NCBI GenBank assembly: GCA_025362955.1
Contig: JANYFB010000308.1
Coordinates: 1 to 48,345 of the forward strand
Reading direction: 5' to 3'
DNA: 48,345 bases
Source: Akkermansiaceae bacterium
GTDB taxonomy: Bacteria > Verrucomicrobiota > Verrucomicrobiia > Verrucomicrobiales > Akkermansiaceae
Translations under genes and position numbers: made by a program
The notes under the pieces: generated by a model
Told to the model about the DNA's origin: nothing
Databases searched by the model: none
The model's input: only the letters and a program-made list of their open reading frames with translations
Shown: positions 4,154 through 44,645 of the stretch, in pieces
How positions within the stretch are numbered: position 1 is the first letter of the stretch
Layout of the letters: every line of letters starts with the position of its first letter

Positions 4154-4191
4154 GACGCAAAATAGCCCGTGAATGACGCAATTTCACCCTA
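4154..4191 (+). promoter_or_regulatory. Putative AraC/XylR-type operator pair A
   Basis: gacgcaaaatagcccgt (4154) and gacgcaatttcacccta (4175), 21 bp apart, upstream of the transporter gene. Confidence 0.7.
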
Positions 4192-4349
4192 GAACCGGCA
4201 CGAGCAAGCCTGCTATGCATCTGCTACGTCTTTTAAAATGCACTGGGTTGATTTGCGAAATTTTCGTTCTCAGGAATTGATTTAATGGCTTCCAAGACAA
4301 CCTGAAAAGTTGAACTTCGAAAACCCATTGCCGAAGAACGCTTTTTTTC

Positions 4350-6959
4350 ATGAACCCACCTCACAAACTCCACTCCTTCTTGAGTCCTAATTGCCCATGG
4401 AGTCAATTGCTTTGCTTGCCTGTTGTCATGCTATTTCTGTGGCTGATTCCGGCGGCCAATTCTTCAGCTGCCGCGGAAGGATCGACGGTGGCCGAGCAGC
4501 AGAAGTTTGAACTCATACAGCGTGAGGTATCACCCCTGGTGGCGGATCTCAGCGGGGGATTTGCGGCCGCGTGCGGGGAGTTTTTGATGGTCGGAGGGCA
4601 AGAGGGTCCCGGAACATCTGGGATTTCAATTTGGTCGCTGCCGTTGGATCACGATGGAAAAGTCTCGTGGACGAAGGCGGAGGTGAGTGGGCCAGTTTGG
4701 AGCGGCTCTGCAGTTTGGAGAGATAGCGTCATCTGCGCCGGCGGCCTTGTGGAAGGGAAGCCCACGGATCGGGTTTTGAAAATCGTGATGTTAGGCGGTC
4801 AGATGAGCGCGAGCGAACTTCCGAAATTACCAAAGCAACTAGCTGGTGCGGGGGCGGCGGTGATCGGCAAGAATCTGTTGGTTTTCGGTGGCCTCTCGTC
4901 AGTCGATCCGCCTGTTTTTGAAAATACCCTGTGGACTCTCGATCTTGAAAAATCAGGGGCGCAATGGGCTGCCGCCACGCACTTGCCGGGAGCGGGTCGT
5001 GCTTTTGCGGCAGTAACGGCTCAATATGACGCTTTGTGCGTTTTCGGCGGACTCGGAGCAGGCGAGACGACCGCAACCACGGTATCGAACGAAGCTTGGA
5101 TGTTCCGCCTCACTCCGCCGGAAGCGTCCTTGCGTTCCGGTTGGACGCGGGTGGCCGACGTCCCACATCCCTCGGTAGGTGCCGTGGCGTTTCCCGTTGG
5201 ACAGGCAGCTGTCGCACTTGTGGGAGGAAGCGAGATTCCGCCTGCCGCGTTGTTTCCAACACGTATGGAACTGACAGGCGGCCGCGCACCGAAACTTTTC
5301 CACACCATCACTGACGCTTGGTGTGATTTCGACCAGCCGCTCAGCAGGCAGTGCGTTCTAGCAGCGCAGCAAACCTCGAAGCTTGAAACCAAATTTCTGC
5401 TGCTAGGCAGGGTTCCGGGTTCCGATGAAATCCGCATGGATGAGTTCAAACTCGTGCGCACCGTCCGCAGCCTCTCGTGGGTCGATTACCTGGTCATCGC
5501 CTGCTATTTCCTGTTCATTGCGACAATCGGAATGATCGCGTCGCGGCGGCAGAAATCGAGCGCGGACTTCTCACTCGCAGGCCGCAATGTGCCGTGGTGG
5601 GTCGCAGGCATCAGCATGTTCGCCACGGGGGCGAGTGCCATCAGTTTCATGGCTATCCCGGCGCTGGCGTTTTCTACCAACCTGGTTTTCCTGTTCCCGA
5701 TCATCATCTATGTCATGGCGTATTTCGTGCAGTCACGGTTGATTTTCCCGCTGTTGCGACGGATGGAAATCACCTCGACCTACGAATATCTTGAGCGCCG
5801 TTTCAACTGCACGCTGCGGCTTATTGCCAGCGCTCAATGCATCGTGTTCCAGACGTTCGGCCGCGCCAGCGTGGTGTTGGTCCTGCCGTCGCTTGCCATC
5901 TCGGCCACGACGGGTATCAGTGTTTATGTTAGCTTGGTGCTGATGTGGGCGATCACCACGGTTTATACAGCAGCGGGCGGCTTCCAGGCCGTGGTTTACA
6001 CCGACGTTTTCCAAGGAATTTTGAAATTTGTCGCGCCGCTTTGCATGATCGGACTTTGCATTTTCACGATCCCTGGTGGAGCGAAAGAGTTCGTACACAT
6101 CGGCATGTTGCATCACAAATTCGACTTCGCGCTGATGACTTGGGATGCCACCCTGCCAGCGGTGTGGATCTTGTTCATCGCCACCTTCATGGCTGGAACG
6201 ATCGTGCAGGCGGGCGATCAACCGACGATCCAGCGTGTCTTTTCCTCGCCGGAAAAAGAAGTGCGCCGGGTGGCAGCGATGAGTGCCGCGTGTGGCATCT
6301 TGATTTCCATTGTTACGAATGTGCTCGGCATTGCGATTTTCTCCTACTTTCACGCGAATCCAGCAAAGCTCGATCCGCTCGCGCAAAACGACAAAATTGT
6401 CCCGCTTTTTGTCATCCAAGCGCTGCCACACGGCTTCGTCGGCATGGTCATCGCCGCAATTTTCGCATCGGCCATGACCACCGTGGCCAGCAGCATGAAC
6501 AGCTCGGCCACGGTTTTCACCGAGGACTTCTACATGCGTTTCAAACCAGCCGCGACCGACAAACAGCGCGTGCGGGTTCTGCGGATCAGCTCCACGCTGG
6601 TGGGGCTGGTGGCACTCGGCATCGCGCTGCTGCTGGCCACGCTCAATCTCAAGTCGCTCATGGTGACATGGTCGATCATCAGTGCTTTGTTAGGCGGAGG
6701 AATTGTCGGCGTCTTCTCACTGGGCATGTTTACGCGTCGGGCTAACGGTTTCGGCGCGGTGTCCGGAGCAATCCTCAGCATCGTGATCACGGCCTGGGTG
6801 AAATTTTATACACCGCTCCACTGGCAGACTCTCATCCCGATCGCAATCATCTCCTGCATGGTCACGGGTTATTTCCTCAGCCTTTTCTCACCCCAAACAA
6901 ACAACCTCGAAGGCCTGACGGTTTTCACACCCAAAAAACCTGCCGGTGAGGAACGGTAA
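4350..6959 (+). CDS. Kelch/beta-propeller fused to a sodium:solute symporter (SSS family)
   Basis: Signal peptide, repeated GG-motif blades (FLMVGGQ, LLVFGGL, LCVFGGL, VALVGGSE), then YLVIACYFLFIATIGMIASRRQKSSADFSLAGRNVPWWVAGISMFATGASAISFM with multiple TM segments. Confidence 0.9.
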   Translation: MNPPHKLHSFLSPNCPWSQLLCLPVVMLFLWLIPAANSSAAAEGSTVAEQQKFELIQREVSPLVADLSGGFAAACGEFLMVGGQEGPGTSGISIWSLPLDHDGKVSWTKAEVSGPVWSGSAVWRDSVICAGGLVEGKPTDRVLKIVMLGGQMSASELPKLPKQLAGAGAAVIGKNLLVFGGLSSVDPPVFENTLWTLDLEKSGAQWAAATHLPGAGRAFAAVTAQYDALCVFGGLGAGETTATTVSNEAWMFRLTPPEASLRSGWTRVADVPHPSVGAVAFPVGQAAVALVGGSEIPPAALFPTRMELTGGRAPKLFHTITDAWCDFDQPLSRQCVLAAQQTSKLETKFLLLGRVPGSDEIRMDEFKLVRTVRSLSWVDYLVIACYFLFIATIGMIASRRQKSSADFSLAGRNVPWWVAGISMFATGASAISFMAIPALAFSTNLVFLFPIIIYVMAYFVQSRLIFPLLRRMEITSTYEYLERRFNCTLRLIASAQCIVFQTFGRASVVLVLPSLAISATTGISVYVSLVLMWAITTVYTAAGGFQAVVYTDVFQGILKFVAPLCMIGLCIFTIPGGAKEFVHIGMLHHKFDFALMTWDATLPAVWILFIATFMAGTIVQAGDQPTIQRVFSSPEKEVRRVAAMSAACGILISIVTNVLGIAIFSYFHANPAKLDPLAQNDKIVPLFVIQALPHGFVGMVIAAIFASAMTTVASSMNSSATVFTEDFYMRFKPAATDKQRVRVLRISSTLVGLVALGIALLLATLNLKSLMVTWSIISALLGGGIVGVFSLGMFTRRANGFGAVSGAILSIVITAWVKFYTPLHWQTLIPIAIISCMVTGYFLSLFSPQTNNLEGLTVFTPKKPAGEER

Positions 6960-6968
6960 ATTCCGATC

Positions 6969-9227
6969 ATGATTCCTTCTTGCATCACCGATGTGAACGA
7001 GTGGCTGGCCGGCCAGCGCTGCGTAGTCACAGCGCGGCTCGGTCAATATGCGCCGGAGCGATTCAACCTGCTGGTGAATGAAGCGAGGACTAAGCTAACC
7101 GAAAAGCCGTGTGAGGTGCATCTGTCCGGTTCTCGTTGGGTGGTAACAATGAAACGGACGCCAATCTTGGGAGATGTGCGGGCTTTGGATCTGGAGGTCG
7201 TCTTCACTTGTGAGTCGGGATTCTTACCGACGGCCAACGTTTCCGTGGAGTTGAATTTTTCCGATTGGTCTGATAAGAACTACGTGCTCATGCCCGCAGC
7301 CGCGTATGATGGAAATCGTTTCACTTCTCGCCGGTTGCCGTATTCCCCGAAGTTATGGTTTGTGGAGGATATCGGTCCTGACAAGCCAATCATCGTCACG
7401 GACATTCCGAAACTCAATGAACGTGGCGGTCCCTCACGCATTCAGGAACGCAGCGGCAGCATGTCGGTTCCATCCATCGGATTCCGATCCGCTGCGGATC
7501 GCAGGGGATTTTGGGTCAGGACTGGTCAGGGGAATTCACTTGGCGACTATGGCATCAGTATCGAGGAAAATCGCGATCGCACCAAGGCGACAATTTCCAT
7601 CAACTCCCCCCTGGTCCGTGAATTATATAGTTACCGGATATGTGACATGCGGTCTCCTTCGATGGATGTGCCGATGGATTTTAAAACAGGCGACGAGGTG
7701 AGAATTTCGTTTCGCCTCTACGCCTTCGATGCTCCGTCAGCACAATCGCTGTTCGATGAGTATGTAAAGATAAGGAAACCTGCCGTCACGCAACTCATAA
7801 ATCTCCTGCCATTTTCCGCATGTTTCGAGTTACAGGAAGAAAAATTCAATCGCGACAATTTCGTTCCTGAACACGGCTACTATTCCGTGGGACCACGCCA
7901 GAATTTTCTTCAGGACTGGCAGATCGGTTGGACCGGAGGCATGATCAGCACCTATCCGTTGCTCTTCGCGGGCGACGAACGCACGCGCGGCAATGTGTTG
8001 CGGAATTTCGACTGGCTCTTCCCTAACGGAATTAGTCCCTCGGGGTTTTTCTGGGACAGTGGAGCTCGCGGCACGGAATGGTATGGTGGTGACATCCGCA
8101 AGCCTCACACCGCGAACTGGCACCTCATCCGCAAAAGCGCCGACGCGGTTTTCTTCATCATCAAGCAATTCATGCTGATGGAGAAGCTTGGCATCGAGGT
8201 GAGACGATCCTGGAAGGAGGGCACGCGTTTGGTTTGCGACTCGTTGATGAGGCTGTGGAGGGACAACGGACAATTCGGGCAGTTCGTAGATTCGGTGTCA
8301 GGGGAGATTCGCGTTGGCGGCTCGACCAGCGCCGCGATTGCGCCCGCCGCGCTCGTGCTTGCGGCGGAATATTTTGAACAACCTGTCTATCTCGAAGTGG
8401 CGGTGGCCTCGGCCGAATATTTCTATCAAAACTACACCGTCGCCGGTTTGAGCTGCGGTGGGCCCGGAGATGCCTTGCAGAACCCCGATTCGGAATCCTG
8501 GTATGCGTTGATTGAATCCTACGTCGCGCTTCACGATGCCACAGGAGATCCGAAATGGATCGAGCGGGCAGGGGAAGCGGTCCGCCAGTTTTCGACATGG
8601 GTAGTGTCATATGATTTTAAATTTCCCCCGGAATCGATGTTTGGAAAAGCTGACATCCGCACGACGGGCTCGGTTTATGCAAATACCCAAAACAAACACT
8701 CCGCGCCGGGGCTGTGCACGTTTTCGGGGCTTGGCCTGTTCAAGTTGTTTCGGGCAACCGGTGATCAGTTCCCGCTGAATCTGTTGAGGGACATCGCCCA
8801 TGGACTGCCGCAGTATCTGCCGCATCCATTAAATCCGCTTGGTGATGCCGTCATCGGCCACATGTGCGAGCGAGTGAACATGACCGACTGGGAAGGCCCA
8901 GAGCGCATCGGTGAGACGCTTCGCATGACGACTTGGGCAGAGACCTCGCTGATGCTCACGACGGTTGAAATACCGGGAATCTATGTTCAGGCGGATCGAT
9001 CACTGGTTATCGCTTTCGATCATGTCATTGTGGATATCGTCTCGGATGATGAGGCGGAGTTTAGCGTGAAGATATATAATCCTACTGCGGCCACGGCCAG
9101 CGTTAGGATTTTTTCGGAAATTGCCGCCGGGTTGCTACTGCCTTTGCCTGAGAATTATCTTTTTGAGTGTCCTGCCGTAAACCTCATGCCCGGCGAATCA
9201 ACCGAAATTGCGTTTTCGAAATCATGA
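6969..9227 (+). CDS. Cytoplasmic-type alpha/alpha-toroid-like protein, putative glycosidase, family unassigned
   Basis: 752 aa, no obvious signal peptide; beta-rich N-terminus then helical W/Y-rich repeats (WQIGWTGGMISTYPLLFAGDE, GGPGDALQNPDSESWYALIESYVALHDATGDPKWIERA). Confidence 0.6.
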   Translation: MIPSCITDVNEWLAGQRCVVTARLGQYAPERFNLLVNEARTKLTEKPCEVHLSGSRWVVTMKRTPILGDVRALDLEVVFTCESGFLPTANVSVELNFSDWSDKNYVLMPAAAYDGNRFTSRRLPYSPKLWFVEDIGPDKPIIVTDIPKLNERGGPSRIQERSGSMSVPSIGFRSAADRRGFWVRTGQGNSLGDYGISIEENRDRTKATISINSPLVRELYSYRICDMRSPSMDVPMDFKTGDEVRISFRLYAFDAPSAQSLFDEYVKIRKPAVTQLINLLPFSACFELQEEKFNRDNFVPEHGYYSVGPRQNFLQDWQIGWTGGMISTYPLLFAGDERTRGNVLRNFDWLFPNGISPSGFFWDSGARGTEWYGGDIRKPHTANWHLIRKSADAVFFIIKQFMLMEKLGIEVRRSWKEGTRLVCDSLMRLWRDNGQFGQFVDSVSGEIRVGGSTSAAIAPAALVLAAEYFEQPVYLEVAVASAEYFYQNYTVAGLSCGGPGDALQNPDSESWYALIESYVALHDATGDPKWIERAGEAVRQFSTWVVSYDFKFPPESMFGKADIRTTGSVYANTQNKHSAPGLCTFSGLGLFKLFRATGDQFPLNLLRDIAHGLPQYLPHPLNPLGDAVIGHMCERVNMTDWEGPERIGETLRMTTWAETSLMLTTVEIPGIYVQADRSLVIAFDHVIVDIVSDDEAEFSVKIYNPTAATASVRIFSEIAAGLLLPLPENYLFECPAVNLMPGESTEIAFSKS

Positions 9228-10282
9228 ACAAGCGCTATCTGTTTGCTGTTTTCTCATTTCTCCTTCTGCCAATCCATACCGGATGGTCTGGGGATGTTTC
9301 CGGCAATCTTGCATTTGAGACCAGTGCTCTAATGAAGGAATTCGCCCATGTGGAGAGGAAGAAGCCACCGGTGGATTGGCAGTCGCGATCCGGCGCATCC
9401 GGTATGAATTTACTGTGGGAGGCGGACCATTCCAAACCTTGGTATATCGAATACCAAAAGGAGGGGAGAAACTTCATCACGGCGGGTCTGGCTTATGATA
9501 ACAAGGAATCGGTCCACTGGGGTCTGAAAATCCTTGCCTGGGGATTCTCTCGGATGGCCCCGGATGGACAGTTCAAGCATCCGGATTGTTATCATAGCGC
9601 ATCGTTTTTAGTGGAAGCTGCCGCCCATTCCATACTTCTGCTAGAGTCATCTCCATGGCGCGATGAATTCGCCGATGAAACTGCAGCGATCAAGCCAATG
9701 TTACATGCTGCCGCCCGCTGGATGATCCGACCGGATATCGACGTACTCAATTGGCCCGACGACAACAACTATCCACGCATTTTCGGCGAGCGGCGCTATG
9801 CCCACCGCCGGTTCCTCGATGCTGCGGCGCTTGGCGAGGTCGGTATGATTTTTCAAGACAAGGAGTTGTTGGAAAAAGCGGTCTGGCTGGTCCGCAATGG
9901 CATCGCTTTCCAACAGTCGGATGGAGTCAATCCGGAAAAATATGGGCACGACACGTCCTATCAGGCACTCGGTCTGACTTACGCCTGCCGTTACTATCAG
10001 ATCGTAGCCAGTGATGCCACGCGTATAGAAATGCAGCCGATGCTGGACAAGGGATTTGGCTGGTTACTTAATCGCATCCAGCCGGATGGAAGTGTGAATG
10101 CCACAGGCAACACGCGGACTGGACCCGCCGCAGAACCGGGCCGTGATGGCAAGCCTAAAGGACTCGACTATCAAACGACCGCTGTCTGCATCGCTTGGCA
10201 CTCACAGCTCGTAGGTCGCCCGGACTTGGAAAAAACCGCGCGCCGGGTTTTTGAATTCGATCTGAAATCCAAAGGGAATTGA
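9224..10282 (+). CDS. Secreted alpha/alpha-toroid-like protein of unknown family
   Basis: ATG at 9224 (ATGA overlap with upstream gene) gives signal peptide MNKRYLFAVFSFLLLPIHTGWSG; the ORF-track start 9167 lies inside the upstream gene. Confidence 0.65.
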   Translation: MNKRYLFAVFSFLLLPIHTGWSGDVSGNLAFETSALMKEFAHVERKKPPVDWQSRSGASGMNLLWEADHSKPWYIEYQKEGRNFITAGLAYDNKESVHWGLKILAWGFSRMAPDGQFKHPDCYHSASFLVEAAAHSILLLESSPWRDEFADETAAIKPMLHAAARWMIRPDIDVLNWPDDNNYPRIFGERRYAHRRFLDAAALGEVGMIFQDKELLEKAVWLVRNGIAFQQSDGVNPEKYGHDTSYQALGLTYACRYYQIVASDATRIEMQPMLDKGFGWLLNRIQPDGSVNATGNTRTGPAAEPGRDGKPKGLDYQTTAVCIAWHSQLVGRPDLEKTARRVFEFDLKSKGN

Positions 10283-11808
10283 ATTTTGTGGCTTACAAGA
10301 ATCCCATTATCCCCGGCTTTTATCCCGATCCAAGTGTCTGCCGGGTTGGGGAGGATTTTTACTTGGTCAACAGCTCGTTCGAGTATTTTCCCGGAGTTCC
10401 GATCTGGCATAGCCGGGATCTGGTGAACTGGCGGCAGATTGGCAATGTGTTGTCCCGCGAGTCTCAATTGCCCCTTTACGGCTGCGCTTGTTCCGATGGG
10501 ATTTATGCGGCCACGATCCGCTATAACGCAGGAGTATTTTATATGATCACGACGCTGGTGAAATCCGGCGAGTATCTAAACTTTTACGTGACCGCCACCA
10601 ACCCAGCCGGTCCATGGTCGGAGCGGGTAATTTATGACCAGAGCGGCATTGATCCCTCGTTGTTTTTCGATGATGATGGAAGGGTCTATTTCCAGTCGAA
10701 TCGGGGCATGACTTTCAAGATGGCGCGGGCCATCTATCAAAGCGAGATCGATGTCAATACCGGGCGACGGCTCTGCGAACCGAAGTTACTCTGGCCCGGA
10801 ACAGGCGGATGTTATGTGGAGGCGCCGCACCTTTATAAAAAGAACGGCTGGTATTACCTGATGGCAGCGGAGGGCGGCACTGCATACGGACACATGGTGA
10901 CTATAGCCCGTAGTCGCAGTGTCTGGGGGCCATTTGAGTCGTGTCCTCACAATCCGATTCTCTCGAACCGCCATGCCTACGAGGAACTTCACGGCACCGG
11001 CCATGGCGATCTAATCGAAGCCCCAGGCGGCTCATGGTGGATGGTGCACCTCGCGTTCCGCAAAACCGTGGGAGATGTCCATACGATAGGCCGGGAAACG
11101 TGTCTTGCTCCGGTCACATGGATGGACGACTGGCCGGTGGTGAATGGAGATGGAACTAACAAAGAGTTGGTGGATGTGCCGGTCTTGCCGCAACAACTTT
11201 GGCCGACGGTGGCTGATGACTTTGCCGGGGTGGAGTTACCATTCAACTGGATGTATCTCCGAAACCCCAAGGCCTCTAATTACTCACTGAGCGAGCGCAA
11301 AGGATATCTCCGATTGCATGGCGCGGCGGAAACTCTAGGAGAGATCGCTTCACCTACTCTCGTCGCACGGCGTCAGCAACATTTTGACTTCCAAGCTGAA
11401 ACCCGGTTGGAGTTTGATCCGCTGAACGAAAACGAAGAGGCTGGGTTGACCCTGCTGATGACGAACGAGCATCATTATGATTTCCATATCACTCGCAAGA
11501 ACGGCCAGCGGATGTTGCTGGTCAAATATACTTTGGAGACCATCCGACAAACTGCAGCGGAGATTCCGCTTATGGAAGGGGCGGTCGATCTTCGGATTTC
11601 AGGCACCAGGGCATACTATCATTTTTCATTCGCACAACGCGATGGGATCTTCGGGGAAATCGCCAAGGTTAATACCCGCTATTTAGCGACGGAAGTCACT
11701 GGCGGCTACAATGGCGTCGTCATCGGGCTTTATGCGACGGGGAATGGTGAAGCCTGTGCTGCCAACGCGGACTTTTGCGGATTCAAATATCTACCGGGCA
11801 ATCATTAA
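10279..11808 (+). CDS. Glycoside hydrolase family 43 (beta-xylosidase/arabinofuranosidase-like)
   Basis: NPIIPGFYPDPSVCRVGEDFYLVNSSFEYFPGVPIWHSRDLVNW; GIDPSLFFDDDGRVYF; C-terminal beta-sandwich region; TTG start overlaps upstream TGA. Confidence 0.93.
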   Translation: MNFVAYKNPIIPGFYPDPSVCRVGEDFYLVNSSFEYFPGVPIWHSRDLVNWRQIGNVLSRESQLPLYGCACSDGIYAATIRYNAGVFYMITTLVKSGEYLNFYVTATNPAGPWSERVIYDQSGIDPSLFFDDDGRVYFQSNRGMTFKMARAIYQSEIDVNTGRRLCEPKLLWPGTGGCYVEAPHLYKKNGWYYLMAAEGGTAYGHMVTIARSRSVWGPFESCPHNPILSNRHAYEELHGTGHGDLIEAPGGSWWMVHLAFRKTVGDVHTIGRETCLAPVTWMDDWPVVNGDGTNKELVDVPVLPQQLWPTVADDFAGVELPFNWMYLRNPKASNYSLSERKGYLRLHGAAETLGEIASPTLVARRQQHFDFQAETRLEFDPLNENEEAGLTLLMTNEHHYDFHITRKNGQRMLLVKYTLETIRQTAAEIPLMEGAVDLRISGTRAYYHFSFAQRDGIFGEIAKVNTRYLATEVTGGYNGVVIGLYATGNGEACAANADFCGFKYLPGNH

Positions 11809-11826
11809 TCGATTCCACAGCATTAT

Positions 11827-13581
11827 ATGTCCGCATTCATTCTTGATATGGTCCACCACAATCCGGGCGAACCGCCGTTCCAGTCGCGGTTTCTTGATCC
11901 CGCGCATCTGGTGGACTACGGGTTCAATGGCCAGGTTTTCAAACACATCAATTGCATCGCCACGTTTGAAAAGCTGGGTGTGGATGTGTTTCCCGCGGGC
12001 ACGCCAGAGCGGAAGTGGCTGGATGAGTTCACGCCGGGGATTGAGCAGCAGATCGCGGCGGCCAAAGCAAAGGGGCTGACGGTTTTCTATCATATTGATC
12101 TTTTCGTTCTGCCGAAGCGGTTGGTAGATCATTTCCGGGAAGAGATATGTGATCCGGTATCCGGGCGAATCCTGTTGGAGCGGCCCATGACTTTGGAAAT
12201 CCATCGTGCTTTGTTCGCGGAGCTTGTAGAGCGCTTTCCGGAGGTGGATGGTTATATCATCCGTGTGGGTGAAACATATCTATTTGATACGCCCCACCAT
12301 GTCGGAAATGGCCCGATTCCAAGAATAGGAGATGCGTGGTCGCCCACCTATCTTTATGAAGAAACTCTGGCGAAAACCCAGGGCGGGCAGGTTTGGACAT
12401 CCGCGCAGGTGGAGGCCTATGTCGAACTGATCGGCTTCCTGAGGGATGAAATTTGTGTGATCCATGACCGGATGCTTTTTTTCCGCACATGGGATATCTT
12501 TCCGGATAAATTCCATGCGCGGCTTGATCACTATCTGGAAGTGACGGATCAGATCGAGCCTCATGCAAATTTGGTTTTTTCCGTCAAACACACGGCTCTC
12601 GATTTCTGGCGGCATGTGAAATTCAACGAGTGCCTGACGAGGGGAAGGCATCGCCAAATCATCGAGGTCCAATGCCAACGCGAGTATGAAGGCAAGGGGG
12701 CCTATCCGAACTATGTGATGGATGGCGTGATCAACGGCTTCGAGGAGAATGCCATAAAAAAGGGTCTGGGTGAGGTGCTGGACGATCCTTTGATTGTCGG
12801 AGTCTATGCTTGGTCGCGAGGCGGCGGATGGTATGGTCCTTACATTTCAAATGAACTGTGGCCCGATTTGAATGCCTTCGTGTTGGCCCGGTTCGTCAAA
12901 GATCCGTCGCGGTCGGAGGAGGAGATATTCCACGAGTATGCAGTCGGTAAAATCGGACTCACGGCGGCAGACGCGAGGCGCTTCCGGCAACTTTGCCTGC
13001 TCTCGGCGACGGCAATTCTCAAAGGACGGCACTGCGAGGTGTTCGACCGTGAGTTGGATGAAGCAGTGCTTCCGACCGCTTGCTGGATGCGTGATGATCG
13101 GCTCGGCGGACGCGAACAGTTAGGGCTCGTCCTCGACTACCTATCAAAAAACGATCTGCTCGTTCATGCGCTTACTGAGAAAGCCGAAGCGGTTGCGATC
13201 TGGCGGCAAATCGCGGATCTCGCGAATACCATCGACTGGCCGGAGGGGCCTGCGGGCGGATTCGCAAGAATTTCTGCTGAATATGGGCGGTTGCTGTTTG
13301 AAATCATCCATCACGGCTGGCGGGTGCTGATCGCCGGACAGCGCGGAGAGAATGCGGGGGATTATGACTCCAAGGAACTCGCGGATGCGATTTTCTGCTA
13401 CTTGGAAAGCTGGCAGGATTACCGTTTGCTGGCAGCCCATCATGGTTGCCCGTCGCTTTATCGGGGAGATTACTTCAGTTTGCCGGGTGCTCCGGCTGCT
13501 CCCGGATTGAATGAATCGGTCTCGCATTACAAGAGACTTTCACTGTTAGGAAAAACGTCTTTGAACCAATTACCGAAATGA
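11827..13581 (+). CDS. TIM-barrel glycoside-hydrolase-like protein, remotely GH67-like
   Basis: RQIIEVQCQREYEGKGAYPNYVMDG and NELWPDLNAFVLARFVKDPSRSEEEIFHEYA echo GH67 alpha-glucuronidase blocks (EFQITQEYLGQ..HLVY; AQANWYAFGRLAWDP..S.E.I..EW). Confidence 0.5.
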   Translation: MSAFILDMVHHNPGEPPFQSRFLDPAHLVDYGFNGQVFKHINCIATFEKLGVDVFPAGTPERKWLDEFTPGIEQQIAAAKAKGLTVFYHIDLFVLPKRLVDHFREEICDPVSGRILLERPMTLEIHRALFAELVERFPEVDGYIIRVGETYLFDTPHHVGNGPIPRIGDAWSPTYLYEETLAKTQGGQVWTSAQVEAYVELIGFLRDEICVIHDRMLFFRTWDIFPDKFHARLDHYLEVTDQIEPHANLVFSVKHTALDFWRHVKFNECLTRGRHRQIIEVQCQREYEGKGAYPNYVMDGVINGFEENAIKKGLGEVLDDPLIVGVYAWSRGGGWYGPYISNELWPDLNAFVLARFVKDPSRSEEEIFHEYAVGKIGLTAADARRFRQLCLLSATAILKGRHCEVFDRELDEAVLPTACWMRDDRLGGREQLGLVLDYLSKNDLLVHALTEKAEAVAIWRQIADLANTIDWPEGPAGGFARISAEYGRLLFEIIHHGWRVLIAGQRGENAGDYDSKELADAIFCYLESWQDYRLLAAHHGCPSLYRGDYFSLPGAPAAPGLNESVSHYKRLSLLGKTSLNQLPK

Positions 13582-16133
13582 AACTCATCTTAGCTCTCAT
13601 CTTCGCTTCTGCGACTATCAAACCGTGCGCTTTCGCACAGGATGTAGTGCAGCGCAAACTTTCGACTGAATCGAGTGCGGACGAGGTTCTCGATGGCAAG
13701 TATCCTTTCCCTCCTTCGCCCGAAGTGAAAACCGGGAGTGATCTTGCGGGATTTGCTGAGGACCGGATTTCCAAGGTTCCCGCGCCCGGAATCCATCCGA
13801 GGATCTTGCTCAGTCCGCAAGATTTGCCGGACCTCCGCCGCCGGCTGAAGGACACAGAAACCGGACGCGCGCTTTATGCCACGTTGAAATTCCGCACCGC
13901 CGGCGCGCTCCGCAACCCGAAAGAATGGAGCAGCCAACTGTATGCCAAGCTCGCTGCGGGGGATGAAGCCGGGGTGTTGGCGTTGGTGGAAGAGCACAAG
14001 GGTTTTCCTCCCGGCATCGGGCACTATCAGCCTTGGTTGTATGCCATCGTCATGGAGTCGTTCGACGCGATGATTTCCGGCGACGAGGCGCAGGGAAAAC
14101 AGGCCGCCACCGCCATCGCCACCTATGCGAAACTGATTCAGCCAAATTTGGAGCGCGTTCTCAACGGGCCGATGAATGACGACGTCTGGCGAGCGAAAAC
14201 CTCCGGTCCCACCACAGGCTATGGCTCATCCGATCAGGGGATGCGCGAGGGAGTGGGCGGGCATTTGTTAGGATATGCCTATGATTTCAGCTATAACTTC
14301 ATGTCGGACTCACAGCGCGCCACGGTGCGTGGTGTGATTTCAACGGCCACCAAAGGCCGCTTGTGGATGGGGGCGCGGCTGCCGCATCATTTCAGGAATT
14401 GGAACTGGATCGCGGTGGGTCTCCAACAGCCGTTGTTGGCGCTGGCAATCGAAGGTGAGGAGGGTTCCGATCCGCGGGTTTATAAAATGGGGGTGGAGAT
14501 TGCCCGGGACTATCTAACTTACGCCATTTCTCCTAGTGGTGAGTCAACGGAAGCGGTGGGCTACACCCAATTCGGCTTGGTCTGGGGAAATCCGTTTTTT
14601 GTCGCTGCCACCCGGCGCGGAGACAATCTGCTAGGCCACAGCCATCATCGGGCGATGCTCGACTGGTATATCCAGAGCATGGAGCCAAGCCTGGACCATT
14701 TCACCAGCCATGGCGATGGCGGCGATGGCCCGCCGACGATCTGGACGCTCTCAATGTGGCATTACTTTTTCCCTAAAGACCGGCGGGCGGACTTTCTTTG
14801 GCATTGTTTCCTAACGAAATCCGAAGGCACACCGCTGGCGGCAAACGCGCTCGATGTGCAGAACGATCCCGCCACGCGACACCTCCCGGTGCCAGAGAGT
14901 TTCAGTCCGCTGAAGGGGAATTTCCACATCATCGAGCCGATGCTGTGGGCCAGCGACGACCGCATGGATCTGTCGGTCAAACCCGGCGATTTTAAATTTC
15001 CGACGATGAGATTCGACCCCGTTCGCGGATCGCTGAATGCCCGCAGTGGTTGGGATGCGGATGCGACGGCGGTGCAGTTCGAGTGTCGTGTGGATTCCGT
15101 CGGTGGAAGCCATGAACATGCCGACCGCACGAATTTCACCTTATTCGCGCTCGGGCGCGCCTGGGCATCAGATTAATTTCGCTCGGTCGAGACGCGTCAT
15201 CATAACAACATTTTGATCGACGGTCTGGGGCAGGGGTTCTGGCCAGGACCGGGCGAGTGGCTGGGCTATCAGGAGAAGGGCGGCGTGATCATCGCAGCGG
15301 CGGATGCAAAGGACGCCTATAACTGGGTGTGGCCCAAGCAGATCGCCAGTGAGCCAGCGGAGTTCGAACGTTTCAAGTTTCCGCGCTGGGAGAGTTATGC
15401 CCAAGAGTCCGAGATTTTCCGAGAGAAGTATGCCAATGTGCCGGTCGAGCGTGACACGCGGCCCGGGGTGGTTGCATTTTGGAAAGGCTATGAAATGACC
15501 GATCCGAGGTTGTGGGATGAAGACGCCTGGCCGGTGCGGCTGCCCCATAATCCGGTGCAGCGTGCATTTCGAAGCATTGCATTTAACCGGAATGAAAAGC
15601 CATGGCTGCTCGTCGTCGATGACATTCAAAAGGGAGATACGGAACACCTCTACGAATGGCTGATGCAGACCGGCTTCAACACCGAAACGATTTCCATCAA
15701 TGGCAACGACATCATTCTGGGTGATGCCACGGTAAAGCGCGATGCAAGGGGCATGCCCGCTCCGCAGAAGGGTGATCGGCAGCTTCTGGTCCGTGTGCTG
15801 GACTTGAAGGATCCCGCTGATCCGCGTTTTTTCTGCACTAAGCCGTCTTTCCGGTTAGAGGCGTTCGAGCGCAAGGACACGCTGGTTCCTGAGAATAAAA
15901 CGGGGGCACTCAGCGGTGCGCGTTCTTTCGGGATGGACAAGCGGCTCGTCATTGCAAGCCGTGCGGTAGCTCCGGATTTTAAAATCCTGTTGTTTCCCCA
16001 TCGTAAGGGCGACGCATTGCCGGTCACGAGCTGGAGTGAGGATTCTACGCGGCTTACGATTGAGACAGGTAGCGAAAAACACACGCTTACCCTGAAAAAA
16101 GAAGGCGGGCGGACGCTACTGTCGTCAGAATAA
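13578..16133 (+). pseudogene. Heparinase II/III family protein interrupted by an in-frame TAA
   Basis: 13578-15176 (VPAPGIHPRILLSPQDLPDLRRRL...HEHADRTNFTLFALGRAWASD) continues in the same frame after TAA 15174-15176 as FRSVETRHHNNILIDGLGQG... to 16133. Confidence 0.8.
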
Positions 16134-16145
16134 AAGCATGGAGCT

Positions 16146-16183
16146 GACGCAAAAAAGCCCCACTGCGACGCAACAATGCCCCT
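16146..16183 (+). promoter_or_regulatory. Putative AraC/XylR-type operator pair B
   Basis: gacgcaaaaaagcccca (16146) and gacgcaacaatgcccct (16167), 21 bp apart; gatact -10-like hexamer at 16196-16201. Confidence 0.75.
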
Positions 16184-16224
16184 CAACAAGTGCTGGATAC
16201 TGCGGCAGAATTTCAGGCGATCCA

Positions 16225-17094
16225 TTGAACGCAACCCTGCACAACCCCGTGTTCCGTCTGGGAATCCGCGCCCACGACATCGGTCAGTTTCCCGCCAAGG
16301 TCTTGGCACGCATGGTTTCGGACAAGGGATTGGACTGTGTCCAACTTGCCTTGGGAAAGGCCATTGAGGGATTGGACCTTAAACCAGGGCTGATCACTAC
16401 AGCCTTGGCTGCCGAGATAGGTGGAGCCTTTGCAACACATGACGTGCGGATCGAGGTTCTGGGTTGTTATATCAATCCAATCCATCCCGATTTGACAGTT
16501 AGAAAATCACTGCTGGGACTGTTTAAGGAGCATTTGAGGCACGCGCGGGAGTTCGGTTGCAACATCGTGGCACTCGAAAGCGGATCTTTAAACGCTGATT
16601 ATTCGCCTCATCCGGGCAACTCGGGCGAAGCCGCGTTTCTTGAGCTATTGGAAAGTGTCCGCGAACTGGTAGCTGAGGCGGAATGCTGCGGAGTCTGCGT
16701 CGGAATTGAGGCGGTGACCCACCATGTGCTTTCGACACCCGAGCGGATGCGGCGCTTATTGGATGAGATTCCTTCGCCCCACCTGCAGGTGGTTTTCGAT
16801 CCAGTGAACCTTCTCTCGCTGGAGAATTGGGTGGCGCAGCGTGAGATTTTGCAGCGTTCGTTCGATCTGTTTGGGGATCGAATCGGCGTGGTCCACGCGA
16901 AAGATTTCCGGATCGGGCAGGGCCGTCTGCTGGTCTGTCCAGCGGGCACCGGGCTGTTGGATTTCAGACTGATCCTTTCCTGGCTGGCACGCCACAAGCC
17001 TGGGATAGCAATGTTGTTAGAAGAGGTCGCTCCAGAACACATCGCCTCGTGCGCCAGTCATCTTGAATATTCCAAATATCTATCCATTTCATGA
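16225..17094 (+). CDS. Sugar phosphate isomerase/epimerase (xylose isomerase-like TIM barrel)
   Basis: VFRLGIRAHDIG...LDCVQLAL...GCYINPIHPD...VGIEAVTHHVL...VVFDPVNLLS...IGVVHAKDFRI...LEEVAPEHI. ORF-track start 16138 falls at an apparent operator; in-frame TTG 16225 or GTG 16249 more likely. Confidence 0.8.
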   Translation: MNATLHNPVFRLGIRAHDIGQFPAKVLARMVSDKGLDCVQLALGKAIEGLDLKPGLITTALAAEIGGAFATHDVRIEVLGCYINPIHPDLTVRKSLLGLFKEHLRHAREFGCNIVALESGSLNADYSPHPGNSGEAAFLELLESVRELVAEAECCGVCVGIEAVTHHVLSTPERMRRLLDEIPSPHLQVVFDPVNLLSLENWVAQREILQRSFDLFGDRIGVVHAKDFRIGQGRLLVCPAGTGLLDFRLILSWLARHKPGIAMLLEEVAPEHIASCASHLEYSKYLSIS

Positions 17095-18899
17095 AAAGTC
17101 CGTTGAAAACCGTCAGCAGGATCGGAGACAAGCTCATCCGTGACACGCCATTTGAATACCGCCTGGAAGTCGCCAAGGTGACACATCTGTTGGACAGGAT
17201 GCATTGTGTGGATTTCGGCCGGACATTCGGACTCGGTCGTGCGGCGGTGGCCTATGCTTGGACCTGTCTCACCTGTGTGGAGGAGACGGTTTTATCCCTC
17301 CAGGTGGAGCACAACGACGGCTGCAGCATCTGGTTGAACGGCGAGTTAGTTTACAAACAATTCGGTGACCGTGTCATCCAATTGCATTTCGAGGAGCGCA
17401 GCCTGGTGATGTCAAACGAAGTCGTACTGCAGTTGCGCCGAGGCACGAACTCCCTGCTGGTAAAGTCCGAAACCCGTGGTGAGGAATGGAAGGTTTTTGT
17501 CCAGCCACCCGCCACGAAGGGTGCGGTTCTCGCCGAAGATCCATGCCATCCGGAAATCGGTCTGCACGGGGTGAGGAACATCGATCCGAAAGTCGCGGGG
17601 TTGTCGAACTGGCTGGTGGTAGGGCCGTTTGCGAATCCCTCCGATGGCTCCCGTCGCACGGGTCTTGAAGAAGTGATGGCACCTGAAGCTGAGTTTCGCT
17701 TCGGTAGGATGTACGCCGGAATCGACGGTCCCGTGACATGGACGATTCCCAAGGTGGAAGTCCTCGGCGGATTAATCGATCCATTGCCCTGGGGGACCAA
17801 CTATAACTGGAACTATCACAACGGCGGTGTGGCGTGGGCGATGCAGGAGCTGGCGGATCTTTCAGGGGATTCACAATACAGCGCCTATGCGTCCCGTTTC
17901 TGCGACTTCCATCTCGATGGCATCCCCTTCGTCAGCTATCAGGTGAAAAAACTGAATGCCGTGGACTCGGCGAACCATTTCATCATCGACACTCCGTTGC
18001 TGGATTTCACGCTGGCACCGTCGTTGCCGTTTATCAGCCGCCTGCGGAGGGAGGCCTGGTTTCCCAAGCGGGAGAGATATGTCAATTGGATCGCACAAAT
18101 GATCCGATATGCGCGCGACACGCAGGTCCGCCTGCCAGCCCACAACATTTTCACACGCACCACTCCAGTAGAATTCACGACGTGGGTGGATGACATGTTT
18201 ATGGGTATCCCTTTCCTGGTGCAGGCGGCGCTTTATTGCGATGGCGAAGACGCGCGCGCCGCGTTCATGGACGATGCCGCCCATCAGGTGTTAGAATTCA
18301 ACACCCAGGTTTGGGACGATGAGGCAGCGCTATACATGCATGCCCGTTACCATGGAAATCCGGTGAAACTGCCCCATTGGTCGCGCTGCAACGGCTGGGC
18401 GATCTGGGCGATGAGCGAGGTGCTCATACATCTGCCTCCGTCACATAAAGACTATCAGAAAATTCTCGCCCATTACAGAACCCACTGCACATCACTACTC
18501 CGATATCAGCACGCAAGCGGACTTTGGCCGAATGTGCTCGATCACCCGGAATCGGCATTGGAAGTCTCGGGATCTGCGATTTTCGTGATGGCGATGGCAC
18601 GCGGTGTGATGCACGGCTGGCTGGACGCGGCGGTCTATCAGGCGGCGGTCATCAAGGGCTGGAATGGTCTGGCATCCCGCATCGAGGACGACGGCACGGT
18701 TCACGGGATTTGTGTGGGGACGATGTGTACCGAGGATGTGAATTACTACGTGAACCGCCCGTTTTATGACAACGATACGCACGGATTGTTCGCAGTCTTG
18801 TTCGCGGGAATAGAAGTGGAGCGGATGCTGGGAGCGCCTGCTAGTCGCGATGAAATGGAGGCGGATCATTTGGCAATGCGAGCGCCGGTGACGGCCTGA
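17091..18899 (+). CDS. GH105-like unsaturated glycuronyl hydrolase with an extra N-terminal beta domain
   Basis: TWVDDMFMGIPFLVQAALY, LPHWSRCNGWAIWAMSEVLIHLP, HASGLWPNVLDHPESALEVSGSAIFVMAMARGV; ATGA overlap with upstream gene. Confidence 0.88.
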   Translation: MKSPLKTVSRIGDKLIRDTPFEYRLEVAKVTHLLDRMHCVDFGRTFGLGRAAVAYAWTCLTCVEETVLSLQVEHNDGCSIWLNGELVYKQFGDRVIQLHFEERSLVMSNEVVLQLRRGTNSLLVKSETRGEEWKVFVQPPATKGAVLAEDPCHPEIGLHGVRNIDPKVAGLSNWLVVGPFANPSDGSRRTGLEEVMAPEAEFRFGRMYAGIDGPVTWTIPKVEVLGGLIDPLPWGTNYNWNYHNGGVAWAMQELADLSGDSQYSAYASRFCDFHLDGIPFVSYQVKKLNAVDSANHFIIDTPLLDFTLAPSLPFISRLRREAWFPKRERYVNWIAQMIRYARDTQVRLPAHNIFTRTTPVEFTTWVDDMFMGIPFLVQAALYCDGEDARAAFMDDAAHQVLEFNTQVWDDEAALYMHARYHGNPVKLPHWSRCNGWAIWAMSEVLIHLPPSHKDYQKILAHYRTHCTSLLRYQHASGLWPNVLDHPESALEVSGSAIFVMAMARGVMHGWLDAAVYQAAVIKGWNGLASRIEDDGTVHGICVGTMCTEDVNYYVNRPFYDNDTHGLFAVLFAGIEVERMLGAPASRDEMEADHLAMRAPVTA

Positions 18900-18914
18900 C
18901 ATCGTCGAATCCCC

Positions 18915-20126
18915 TTGTATTTCCGGGCGTCCGGGATTGTCCTTAACCTCCGACAAGCTGTGAAATCCAAAAAGAAACGCATTGCCCTGATCGGACTGCC
19001 GGTCCTGCAGTCGGTGAACAACCTTTCCAACGCCGCGATAGCCCGGCACGCGGAAGAGGGAGGCAACTGGAGCTTCGTATTCAGCGCTGAGGCTTCGGTG
19101 GATGCTTTCAAATTCCTTAGAACCTTGAATTGTGACGGTGCCATCGTCCGCATCATGAATACGGCGATGCTGCGCGAGGCTAAAAAAGTCCAGTTTCCGC
19201 TGGTGAATGTGTCGTCGTGGTTAGAAAAACCAGGAGTGCCCACCGTGCGGCACGACTACGCTGCGGTAGGCCGGATGGCTGCGGAACACCTGTTAGAAAA
19301 AGGCTTCCGCCGCTTCGGCTGTGTGGTGGTGCCGGGAGGCTGGTTTCTGGAACAGCGACACAATGCTCTCGTCCGCTCGATCCGTGAGCACGGAGGCTCC
19401 TTGAAGTCGTTTCATCTGGAAACCACGATGCCGGGCCTTATCCAACCCGTTACTCAAGCCGAGCGGCGTCGCTTCGTGGAGTGGGTGCGGACGCTGCAAC
19501 GCCCGGCGGCACTGGTTCTGATGGACGATTGGGATGCCCCACTTCTGATGGAACTTTGTCGCGAGGCGGGCTACGAGGTTCCGCGGGATCTGGTGATGAT
19601 CACCACCGGCTGCCACAGCGAGGTGCTGCCTCTCTGCCGGGTGCCTCTGAGCGCCGTCCAGGAGGATCAGGAGCTCCAAGCAAGACTCGCCGTCGGATGC
19701 CTTGATGTTCTCATGACCGACAAGCAACCGCGCGAGACGATGATCAGCGTGCCGCCTCTTGGAATCGTGGAGCGGGCTTCAACCGCCACCATGGCCATTG
19801 AGGATCTCGAGGTTGCTCATGCCGTCGAGTTCATCCGTGGCCATGGGTTTGAACCGATCAACGTGACTGATGTCAGTAGCCGGGTGCAAGTCGCGCGGGT
19901 GACGCTCGAGCGGCGTTTCCGACAGTTGATGGGCAAGACCATGCACGAGTACCTCACCGAGCTGCGGGTGCGCCGGGCGAAAGAATTGTTAGGCGGCGAA
20001 TCACCTCTCAGTCTTCAAGCCATCGCCCAGCAATGTGGTCTGGCGGACCGCAGGCGTCTCAACCAAGTGTTCATCAGCGTTACCGGGAAAACACCTGCGG
20101 CGTGGCAGCAGGAGCAATCGGAGTAA
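18915..20126 (+). CDS. XylR-type transcriptional regulator: periplasmic-binding-like domain plus C-terminal AraC HTH
   Basis: KKKRIALIGLPV..., RHDYAAVGRMAAEHLLEKGFRRFGCV, C-terminal VARVTLERRFRQLMGKTMHEYLTELRVRRAKELLGG...SLQAIAQQCGLADRRRLNQVFISVTGKTPAAW. GTG at 18960 is a plausible alternative start. Confidence 0.92.
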   Translation: MYFRASGIVLNLRQAVKSKKKRIALIGLPVLQSVNNLSNAAIARHAEEGGNWSFVFSAEASVDAFKFLRTLNCDGAIVRIMNTAMLREAKKVQFPLVNVSSWLEKPGVPTVRHDYAAVGRMAAEHLLEKGFRRFGCVVVPGGWFLEQRHNALVRSIREHGGSLKSFHLETTMPGLIQPVTQAERRRFVEWVRTLQRPAALVLMDDWDAPLLMELCREAGYEVPRDLVMITTGCHSEVLPLCRVPLSAVQEDQELQARLAVGCLDVLMTDKQPRETMISVPPLGIVERASTATMAIEDLEVAHAVEFIRGHGFEPINVTDVSSRVQVARVTLERRFRQLMGKTMHEYLTELRVRRAKELLGGESPLSLQAIAQQCGLADRRRLNQVFISVTGKTPAAWQQEQSE

Positions 20127-20137
20127 TCACGGTCGGC

Positions 20138-20175
20138 GACGTAAAATTCCACGCTCGCGCCGCATTTTCGCCCCT
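20138..20175 (+). promoter_or_regulatory. Putative AraC/XylR-type operator pair C
   Basis: gacgtaaaattccacgc (20138) and gccgcattttcgcccct (20159), 21 bp apart; gatacc -10-like hexamer at 20188-20193. Confidence 0.7.
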
Positions 20176-20231
20176 GTCTCCGGGTGCGATACCTGCTGTT
20201 ATTGTTTCAACCCATTCTTGGTTTCGAGTCC

Positions 20232-40200: not shown

Positions 40201-40899
40201 AGTCGCAGCATCCGTGATGCGTTGGACTTCGGTGGTGCCGTTCACCGGATAGATGATGACCATGGTGCGCTGGCCGGGGCGGATGACCCAGTTGTTCGAG
40301 TAAAGCCGCCGGTCGTCCGCTAGGGATACGGTAGCGAAGCGGGTCTCGGGTTTTTCTCCGATCCCGGTTTTAAAAAGTTCCACGCTTGCGGGGGTGATGG
40401 TGGCTGCGGAATCTCCAAGCGTGGCAGCGAGGCGGGCGGCGGTGAGGTTGATGAACCGACAGGTGGTGTCGGGGAACGACTTTGGATCATCCGCTAACAC
40501 GAGAGTCATGAGGATTTCCGGGCGATCCGGATGGGGCAGAAACAGAACGAGAGGCAGGCTGCCACCTTTGGACAAATCTGCCTCTGCTACGACCTTGCGG
40601 ATGGGTTTACCATCGGCACCGACGGCCTTGCGAAAGAACACCACTTTACCGGGACCGAGGCGGTCGTAGTAATTGGAGCGGCTGCTGTCGAAAATGCCGA
40701 TGGTTCCTTCCTTGCCCAATTCCTTCTGGGGCGTGCCAGCCTCAGGCATCGCGGCGTAGGAGAGTTCCTCCACAGTCACCCGGCAGCCGAGAGTACGGAA
40801 CGTTCCCTTGCGATTTTGGTCGGACTCCTGGGCCGTTAGGGGCAGGAGGGCGCTGAATAGAGCGATGATGCTGCAGGGAATTTTTAGTTTAGATCTCAT
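40195..40899 (-). CDS. Secreted protein of unknown function
   Basis: ATG at 40899 gives signal peptide MRSKLKIPCSIIALFSALLPLTAQ; overlaps the end of the upstream minus-strand gene. Confidence 0.6.
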   Translation of the reverse strand: MRSKLKIPCSIIALFSALLPLTAQESDQNRKGTFRTLGCRVTVEELSYAAMPEAGTPQKELGKEGTIGIFDSSRSNYYDRLGPGKVVFFRKAVGADGKPIRKVVAEADLSKGGSLPLVLFLPHPDRPEILMTLVLADDPKSFPDTTCRFINLTAARLAATLGDSAATITPASVELFKTGIGEKPETRFATVSLADDRRLYSNNWVIRPGQRTMVIIYPVNGTTEVQRITDAATL

Positions 40900-43800
40900 T
40901 GGGTGAAAGCCAGCGGAAGGAGGTGATTGTGAAACTACGACCAAAAATCTTGTTCTTTTCGGATTTCAGGTCGGCCAGGGAAGCTTCTGCGGGATCGGTG
41001 GAGCCGTCGAGAAATTCGGGCAGGCGCTGGACCACCGCCTCGGCGATCACTTGGGCGATGACTCGCCCACTAGCGTCTATCGCCTGTCCGCAGGCTCTGA
41101 CGGTGAAGGTATCGGAGCGCACCGTCATCGCTGGGGAAAACGCCTGCACGATATCCTGCTGCATGAGATATCCCGGCATGCCGGTGGCGGTGTTGAGGGT
41201 GTTTCCTTTCGCGTCCTTCAGATTACCGGGGATCATGGCGGGTGTGCCACCGGTGACGGTGGTGGGCACGCCTGCCGCCTTGGCGGTGGCATTGACATCG
41301 GGCGAAGTATTGTCGATGGCCGCCTGGAGCGCCCCGGCGCGAGTGAGCGGGCCGTCGGGGCCGAGGCGGCGATTGAGAAAATCCGCCATGCTGAGAAACG
41401 GCCCGCGGAGCTTTACCTGCTCGACGATCCGTGCCGCGAGTTCATCCAGCTCCGCGTCATTGAGCACGCGTAATCCGTCCCATGCGGAGTTTGGGTTGCA
41501 ATTGGCGGAAGCAGACCAGAAGCGTGGGATGGGATTTTTGTTAGGACCGGTGCCGAGATCGAGAGTGGTCGCATTGCCTGAGGTGGCGTTGAAAAGGCGC
41601 AGCTTGTTGCCGGACAGGCTTCCGAGGAGCGCCTTCCAAGCACCGGTGGAGGTGGAGTTGACGTTGAAGGCACCGTCGAGAATCAAATTGGCTGCGGCTT
41701 TTTCCACCGACCGCAACTCATCCATGCGGAGGGGTTTGCTGGCTGGCGAGCGCGGCTTGATGCGTCCGTTGAGCAGCGGTTTATTAAAGTCAATGAGGAC
41801 GCTGCCTGCATTGGCGTCATTGAAATCATTCCAATAAGCAGGCAAGGTGGTACCCGACGAAGCAGCGGCGGGGGGCACGGTGGAGAGGAAAAATCGGTCG
41901 AACAAGGCCTGGTTGGCCAAGAACGAATCATCCAGGAAAAGGGTGTCGCTGGTGACACTTCCGGCGACGGTGGGTGAGGTCAATGCGTTATTGTCCAACG
42001 GGATGACTGGCGAAGGGAGCGAACCACCAACAAACATCGAACCCATTCCCAAATAGGCAAAGTTTCCAATTGTTAGGAAATTCATCGCTGGCATGTGCAT
42101 GAATTGTCCCAGCGAAACCAACGGCTGGCGCGGCACGTCGCGCAAGATGTATCGATTGCTGGGCATTCCGGATCCAGCACTGGCATCGCCGAACGAAGTC
42201 TGCCAGACATTCGGGTTGCCAGCCGGGTGGACGATCTGAACATCTGTCTGCCCATTGGTATAAATCCCGCCGAAGGGGCTTAGATAGACTTCCTTCCAAG
42301 GGTATGAGGCGGAGTCCTCCAACGGAGTGAACTGGCTGAAATTGCCATGAAACAACGGGATCTGGTTGGCGGCGTTGGAATAGGTAAATGTAGAGGCAGA
42401 GGGCTTCAGGCCTTTCTGGCGGATGTAAAAGCCAATGATCCTGCGGGGTTGGCTATTCATCTGGCTGATGGAAAGTTTCTGCCAGCTTCCCGCCGATGCC
42501 GGTTGCTGATAGGAGCCGCCCGCCTGGGCGCGGGCGGAACCATCGTTGTCAGGCCATTTGTAGTTGGGAGGATTGCAGAAAGTGTCCACGGCCTGGCATC
42601 TCAGTGAGGGTGCGCTGAGCTGGATGCTGATCTCGGCGTTCGGATCGGTAGTGGAGAAGGGAGTTCCCGAGCTTTTACCGGTGGTGGCATCAGCGGTGGC
42701 GGGCAGGTCACAATATTGCGAGTAGTCTGCGGACATTCCGGGGTTGGAAACCAAGTCGCTGAAGGTGATCGCCGCTTTCGGGTCGCTTTTCAACTCATCC
42801 GCATCGAGCGCAAAAACACGCGTCTCGCCAGGTTCAAGCGTGGCGCAGGCACCGGCTTTTGTTTTGAGGGTAAGGCGTCCGGCGTCTGCTTGGTTGATGA
42901 GAGAGTAGGGAACCGTAATCGTGGTGTTTCCGCTTTTGGCAGAAACCTTGATGCAGGTCACGGTGGGTGATGCCGCATTGTAGGATCCGGCAGTGGCGAA
43001 GGCTCCGAAGTTTCTCTGGAACTGATAGTCGCTGGCTTGAATTCTAGCGGAATAGGGATTGTAGAGAACGAGCTGTGGGTAGTAATGAAGCCTGAGCCTC
43101 CAAGCCGGCGTGGTTGCGTTACCGGCATTATAGCTGGAGATCGCGACATCGACGCGGAATGCGATTGGCATCGGTGCGATACCGGCCTGCTTGGTGCTGG
43201 AGCCTGCGAGTTTGACTCCATAATAGCGTGGAGAAAGGACATTGGGCAGGGTTTCCGGTGTTCCTGAACTCGTCGGTGCGGTGGAAGGCTTGCCACTGGA
43301 CGCTATCGGGGAACTCATTAGACTTTTATAAGTGTTGTAATGGAAATAGAGCGAATGCCACGGCAGGCCATCAGTGATTTCCGGATTGGCGGGCTGCACT
43401 CCTGAAGGAATCGTGGGATCGGTGTTGGCGCTGTTGGTGGAATAGCGGTAGAGCATTGCCGCACCGTTGCCGTAGTTGTTGAGCAAGCTTTCGAATGCCG
43501 AAGGGGTTTCAAATGCCGCAGTCAGGTCTTTTTTTAAACCGCCGTGACGAACGTCAGCGATTACCCCCTGGCTGTTCACGGTAAAATCGGGAGAATAACG
43601 GGCGATCGGGTTTTTCATCGAAACCTCGGGCAGCAATTTAACCGTTTCGAGAGTCAGGAATTTCGCCATGGTTTCCGGCGGTGATTTTCGCAAATCCAGT
43701 CCTGTGGAAGCCATTGGCAGCACCTTCTGCATGGCATTCGCCTGAGGTGCGAGATGATGGAGTTGATCGATGGCTGCCAGACCGCTGGAGAACGTGAAAT

Positions 43801-44518: not shown

Positions 44519-44527
44519 GTTTGAAAA

Positions 44528-44565
44528 CAGGGTTGTTTTGCGTCGGTATAGTGTCATTTTACGTC
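44528..44565 (-). promoter_or_regulatory. Putative AraC/XylR-type operator pair E
   Basis: Minus strand gacgtaaaatgacacta (from 44565) and gacgcaaaacaaccctg (from 44544), 21 bp apart. Confidence 0.65.
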
Positions 44566-44607: not shown

Positions 44608-44645
44608 GACGTAAAATTGCACGCCATTGACGCAAAATCGCCCCT
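44608..44645 (+). promoter_or_regulatory. Putative AraC/XylR-type operator pair D
   Basis: gacgtaaaattgcacgc (44608) and gacgcaaaatcgcccct (44629), 21 bp apart; gatgct -10-like hexamer at 44658-44663. Confidence 0.75.

Follow-up and report, generated by a model that had tools for sequence, protein, structure and literature searches.

The window, by which we mean the whole 48,345-nucleotide stretch of DNA analysed here, is a single contig (C78) of an assembly of 3.92 Mb that is 90% complete, and its nearest relatives at the level of the locus are MAGs labelled Verrucomicrobiaceae or Akkermansiaceae. From 4350 to 20126 it carries a run of co-directional genes that ends with a regulator gene. 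This run, the candidate operators (A to E) and the related features are as follows, where L numbers denote the loci compared.

4154..4189, plus strand: candidate operator A, 196 nt 5' of gene 4350, at the head of the run that includes TIM-GH105-XylR
4350..16133, plus strand: upstream genes between operators A and B (kelch/SSF transporter, unknowns, GH43, heparinase-like lyase)
16138..16224, plus strand: apparently spurious 29-codon N-terminal extension (operator and leader DNA), with in-frame stops in L004, L006 and L007
16146..16181, plus strand: candidate operator B, direct repeat GACGCAAAAAAGCCC-N6-GACGCAACAATGCCC with a 21-bp period, an exact pair kept 5' of the TIM gene in L004 to L007
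16225..17094, plus strand: TIM-barrel sugar isomerase/epimerase-like gene (Pfam PF01261), with the predicted revised start TTG 16225
17091..18899, plus strand: GH88/GH105-family unsaturated glucuronyl hydrolase-like gene (PF07470, E 7e-60), adjoining the TIM gene in eight loci
18960..20126, plus strand: XylR-type regulator gene, LacI-like sensor plus AraC HTH by Pfam, with a GTG start kept across orthologues
20138..20173, plus strand: candidate operator E, a weaker match (PWM 32.9), directly 3' of the regulator gene and before the gene at 20184
44530..44565, minus strand: candidate operator D, in divergent orientation to C; the called start ATG 44557 of gene 40889-44557 falls within it
44608..44643, plus strand: candidate operator C, upstream of gene 44769

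The TIM-barrel, GH105 and XylR-like genes lie in the same direction and are nearly contiguous in the ORF list of the window, and the Pfam matches agree with the families that an earlier note on this DNA had given them. In the regulator, PF13377 (Peripla_BP_3) is followed by PF12833 (AraC HTH), which is the XylR-type architecture, and E. coli XylR (4fe4/4fe7) matches it over nearly its full length (residues 59-387, E 4e-25). A search of the regulator against NCBIfam gave no XylR equivalog above the cut-off, and the window showed no operon for xylose isomerase and kinase. The first gene of the run (4350) encodes a kelch/sodium-symporter fusion, and several proteins of the 4350-16133 stretch have no Pfam match. 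The heparinase-like lyase gene, at 13578-16133 and thus upstream of operator B, contains one in-frame stop (15174-15176); the segment around it has an intact counterpart of 73% identity in G032 (858 aa, L121 14526-17102), and the stop is a recent nonsense mutation or else an error of assembly.

Just 3' of ATG 16138, the sequence GACGCAA(A/C)AA occurs exactly at 16146 and at 16167, so that the two half-sites reported in the earlier note are both present, 21 bp apart, as a direct repeat. The operator half-site in the window is the GC-flanked GACGCAAAATNGCCC. Taken singly, this half-site is not enriched, with 13 matches at one mismatch or fewer against 12.7 expected, and therefore only the 21-bp pair is informative. 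The 3.92-Mb assembly contains the pair GACGYAA-N14-GACGYAA exactly five times, and the window accounts for four of these copies (4154+, 16146+, 44565- and 44608+); the expectation, estimated from base counts, is about 0.1 per whole assembly. In a position weight matrix (PWM) scan, for which the score cut-offs (16, 18, 20) were picked by eye, five pairs exceeded the threshold at spacing 21 and none or one at each other spacing from 15 to 39. The PWM scores of the window sites are not independent evidence, because the matrix was partly built from those sites; the spacing contrast is independent of its building, as are the matches in L008, L010, L017 and L018, whose sites were left out.

The fifth exact pair lies on contig C97 (L126), where an operator at 4791-4818 on the minus strand stands upstream of a gene whose product, autotransporter-like and rich in repeats, has 1246 aa; a weaker operator is found at 871-898, also on the minus strand, near the contig end. 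These sites suggest that the regulon extends beyond the window. Pattern matches in G029 (L145, L153) and G035 (L134, L146) were rejected as operators, being 7-bp microsatellites of the form (GACGCAA)n.

The called TIM-barrel ORF begins at ATG 16138, its first start, 4 nt 3' of the upstream stop codon at 16131-16133. The earlier note had held that this start is misplaced, and the relatives bear this out: they keep the operator and not the frame. The four closest TIM orthologues (L004, L005, L006 and L007) have the operator in the stretch that separates the TIM gene from the upstream stop codon. Counting back from the core [VF]RLG, codon -9 is TTG, TTG, GTG, GTG and TTG in the window, L004, L005, L006 and L007, a start position kept in five of five genes, and at the remaining 29 upstream codon positions start codons occur in at most one of the five genes each. 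In-frame stops precede the core in three of the four orthologues (TGA at codon -10 in L004, directly before its TTG; TAA at -15 in L007; TAA at -26 in L006, inside half-site 2), and hence these three cannot encode the 38-codon extension ahead of the core. In the same order, half-site 1 precedes the start codon by 79, 78, 73, 76 and 78 nt; these values do not all differ by multiples of three, and the operator therefore keeps no single frame. Taken together, the conservation of codon -9, the in-frame stops and the unheld operator frame indicate, on comparative grounds, that the TIM gene begins at TTG 16225, about 87 bases after the called start. The nine residues that follow this start show no conservation, as would suit a free N-terminal tail.

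We consider it very unlikely that an extended protein is made from ATG 16138 through read-through from operator A and coupling to the stop at 16131-16133, with operator B lying within coding sequence. The start does fall only 4 nt past that stop, and in L005 the frame is likewise open through the operator, making an extension possible there; however, it is impossible in L004, L006 and L007, the operator shifts frame with respect to the gene from locus to locus, and the Shine-Dalgarno match of ATG 16138 is poor. The comparison of homologue N-termini, which the earlier note had proposed, thus excludes the extension in those three loci and leaves the frame open in the fourth. Over the whole set, 70 of 80 TIM homologues cannot accommodate the 38-codon extension, and most distant homologues begin within a few residues of the core, many of them 1 to 3 residues before it. 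This last feature would suit initiation at GTG 16249, directly before FRLGIRAHDIG, which would also allow a longer leader and was one of the two alternatives in the earlier note. Both alternatives are indeed in frame, but the four closest orthologues, all of which have a start at codon -9, read CCG or CAA at the position of this GTG, and no clear Shine-Dalgarno-like sequence precedes GTG 16249; we therefore judge GTG 16249 unlikely. TTG 16225 is the conserved one of the two, with a modest Shine-Dalgarno match in the window and none clear in two of the four relatives.

To which regulator the operator belongs was addressed with a survey of 80 TIM-barrel loci (1.23 Mb) by PWM scan. Operators were found only in L004-L008, L010, L017 and L018, all of them Verrucomicrobia with the TIM-GH105-XylR unit, this being incomplete in L007, where the contig ends inside GH105 before the XylR position. 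Put as counts, the operator is present in seven of seven loci with a XylR orthologue of at least 60% identity versus one of 73 others, namely L007. Fisher's test of operator against regulator orthologue gives 2.5e-9, a value that is only descriptive because the loci share ancestry. Within the phylum, L009, L011 and L012 have neither the regulator orthologue nor the operator. Regulator orthologues of 79-84% identity occur in three genomes assigned to the same genus, G030, G032 and G036, with operator copies in each; G020, which is 59% complete, has the operator and the TIM gene on a contig that ends inside GH105. The recognition helices [SA]RVTLER[RH]FR and DRRRLNQVF are common to the orthologues and absent from the paralogues. 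With DNA-recognition helices nearly invariant and with this co-occurrence, the XylR-like gene at 18960-20126 is the foremost candidate to encode the cognate regulator, and operator B is very probably a docking site for the XylR-type regulator of its own cluster.

The operator could instead belong to another regulator, the adjacent XylR co-occurring by ancestry. The genome does encode a further XylR-like protein, on C326 and of 25% identity, as well as a weaker HTH match on C293; shared ancestry also confounds the co-occurrence, every one of the eight operator loci being verrucomicrobial. Yet the motif tracks the XylR unit in eight loci and in more than one order, the verrucomicrobial TIM loci that lack the orthologue lack the motif as well, and the distinctive helices are shared by the orthologues, so that we regard a foreign regulator as quite improbable. 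The repeats, with their fixed 21-bp period, are conserved and co-occur with the XylR-type regulator, for which they are candidate binding sites.

The regulator gene, too, appears to be called too long: its ORF starts at TTG 18915, while GTG 18960 is conserved as the start in all regulator orthologues, to which position the start should be moved. As for its own control, operators A and B both stand upstream of the co-directional run that ends in the regulator gene, and the TIM, GH105 and regulator genes adjoin one another in eight loci, of which L007 shows the first two only. Because the motif belongs with the XylR orthologue and the regulator gene is last in the run, the association supports membership of the regulator in its own regulon. 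The earlier note had read this autoregulation out of operator B; the membership is probable, with the co-occurrence behind it, but operator B need not be its cause, since operator A heads the same run and autoregulation would hold without B. Given operator A at the head and the small intergenic gaps, operator B would be an internal, additional operator.

More distant relatives bear on its history. In L008, L010, L017 and L018, which carry TIM-GH105-XylR, no operator lies directly before the TIM gene; the TIM start and the stop codon ahead of it overlap in L008 (ATGA), and L017 and L018 each have an operator about 6.7 kb upstream. Operator E is more widely shared than operator B, its position being kept in L004/L122, L006/L124, L123, L008, L010 and L017. 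Since operator B is absent in four relatives and operator E more widespread, self-control of the operon looks older than operator B, which in turn looks as if it had been added in the lineage on the Akkermansiaceae side.

Regarding promoter elements, the earlier note had pointed to a -10-like hexamer and to a transcription start near 16208, and neither is supported. GATACT is present at 16196-16201, but only L007 among the four orthologues has a similar sequence (GATACA); moreover, the best -10 score 26-41 nt past half-site 2 was no better than in shuffles (p ~0.20). An offset of 39 nt stood out at first (matched by 0 of 500 shuffles) and was discarded because the first set held many orthologous sites: after orthologue grouping p was 0.33, and the offset did not recur in held-out sites. 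No -10 distance is thus fixed, and a consensus scan of 16080-16300 gave no sigma-70-like promoter and no terminator. From the end of the second repeat to TTG 16225 there are 43 nt and therefore, if operator B drives transcription, the 5' leader would be short.

In E. coli, the XylR operators at xylA and xylF are paired direct repeats with 21-bp spacing, their half-sites are AT-rich, and the targets are xylose isomerase and kinase. The window regulator is likewise a LacI/GalR-type sensor fused to an AraC HTH, with similarity over 59-387, and its candidate sites are paired direct repeats; it differs in the GC-flanked half-site and in its predicted targets, a polysaccharide cluster with GH105, GH43 and lyase genes. 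Pairs of direct repeats are known as sites of XylR-family regulators, and in Vibrio, XylRA controls a beta-1,3-xylan regulon through several two-direct-repeat sites 5' of transcription units, with binding seen in gel shifts (PMC12125979). The window resembles Vibrio in having a XylR-type regulator, here predicted to act on a polysaccharide cluster, with several candidate paired direct-repeat sites; the Vibrio system, however, is in another phylum, its repeats are AT-rich and its ligand is xylose (PMC12125979). The ligand of the window regulator probably differs from xylose and would be a uronic-acid-related sugar. Both E. coli XylR and Vibrio XylRA are activators (PMC12125979); by analogy with them, the feedback here would be activating, and the regulator probably helps to switch itself on.

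Taking into consideration the repeat, its conservation, its co-occurrence with the regulator and the position of the start codon, all of which were computed, we hold it highly probable that operator B binds the XylR-type regulator, that TIM translation starts at TTG 16225, and that the regulator is in its own regulon via B and A. A XylR dimer would contact two GACGCAA..GCCC half-sites, two helical turns apart; the sugar-bound regulator would probably recruit RNA polymerase to a promoter starting within the called ORF; the TIM-barrel protein would be translated from a start past operator B; and the regulator would come under its own control through operator B, in addition to operator A at the head of the run. 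That the regulator binds directly and activates instead of repressing is extrapolated here from E. coli XylR, as are its ligand and the promoter elements. The mechanism is ordinary and belongs to the E. coli XylR type of direct-repeat regulation.

A search of the available literature found no AraC/XylR-type operators described for the phylum Verrucomicrobia. It is quite possible, and we put it forward tentatively, that the locus represents an undescribed verrucomicrobial XylR-type regulon that extends over the orders of both Akkermansiaceae and Limisphaerales and uses a GACGYAAAATNGCCC direct-repeat code of its own, and to which operator B was added in one lineage, replacing translational coupling and giving a private feedback promoter. 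The analysis yields an operator code that lends itself to testing, of which the cluster has about five sites, and corrects two predicted gene starts, those of the TIM-barrel protein and the regulator. It also illustrates that gene callers can translate promoters where an operator happens to keep the frame open.

Elsewhere in the window, the called start ATG 44557 of gene 40889-44557 (minus strand) is probably misplaced, as in the TIM gene, because it lies inside operator D; the conserved protein starts near RGFALVVTLSLM, with a pilin-like N-terminus. Finally, contig G005:C77 (L156) has four GACGCAA pairs of 21-bp period, at 4257, 8783, 13331 and 16460, which were rejected as members of the same regulon, having a different core and a neighbouring XylR paralogue of 29% identity, and which appear to form a parallel regulon. 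The half-site and its period may thus be a wider habit of the XylR subfamily, as this parallel suggests.
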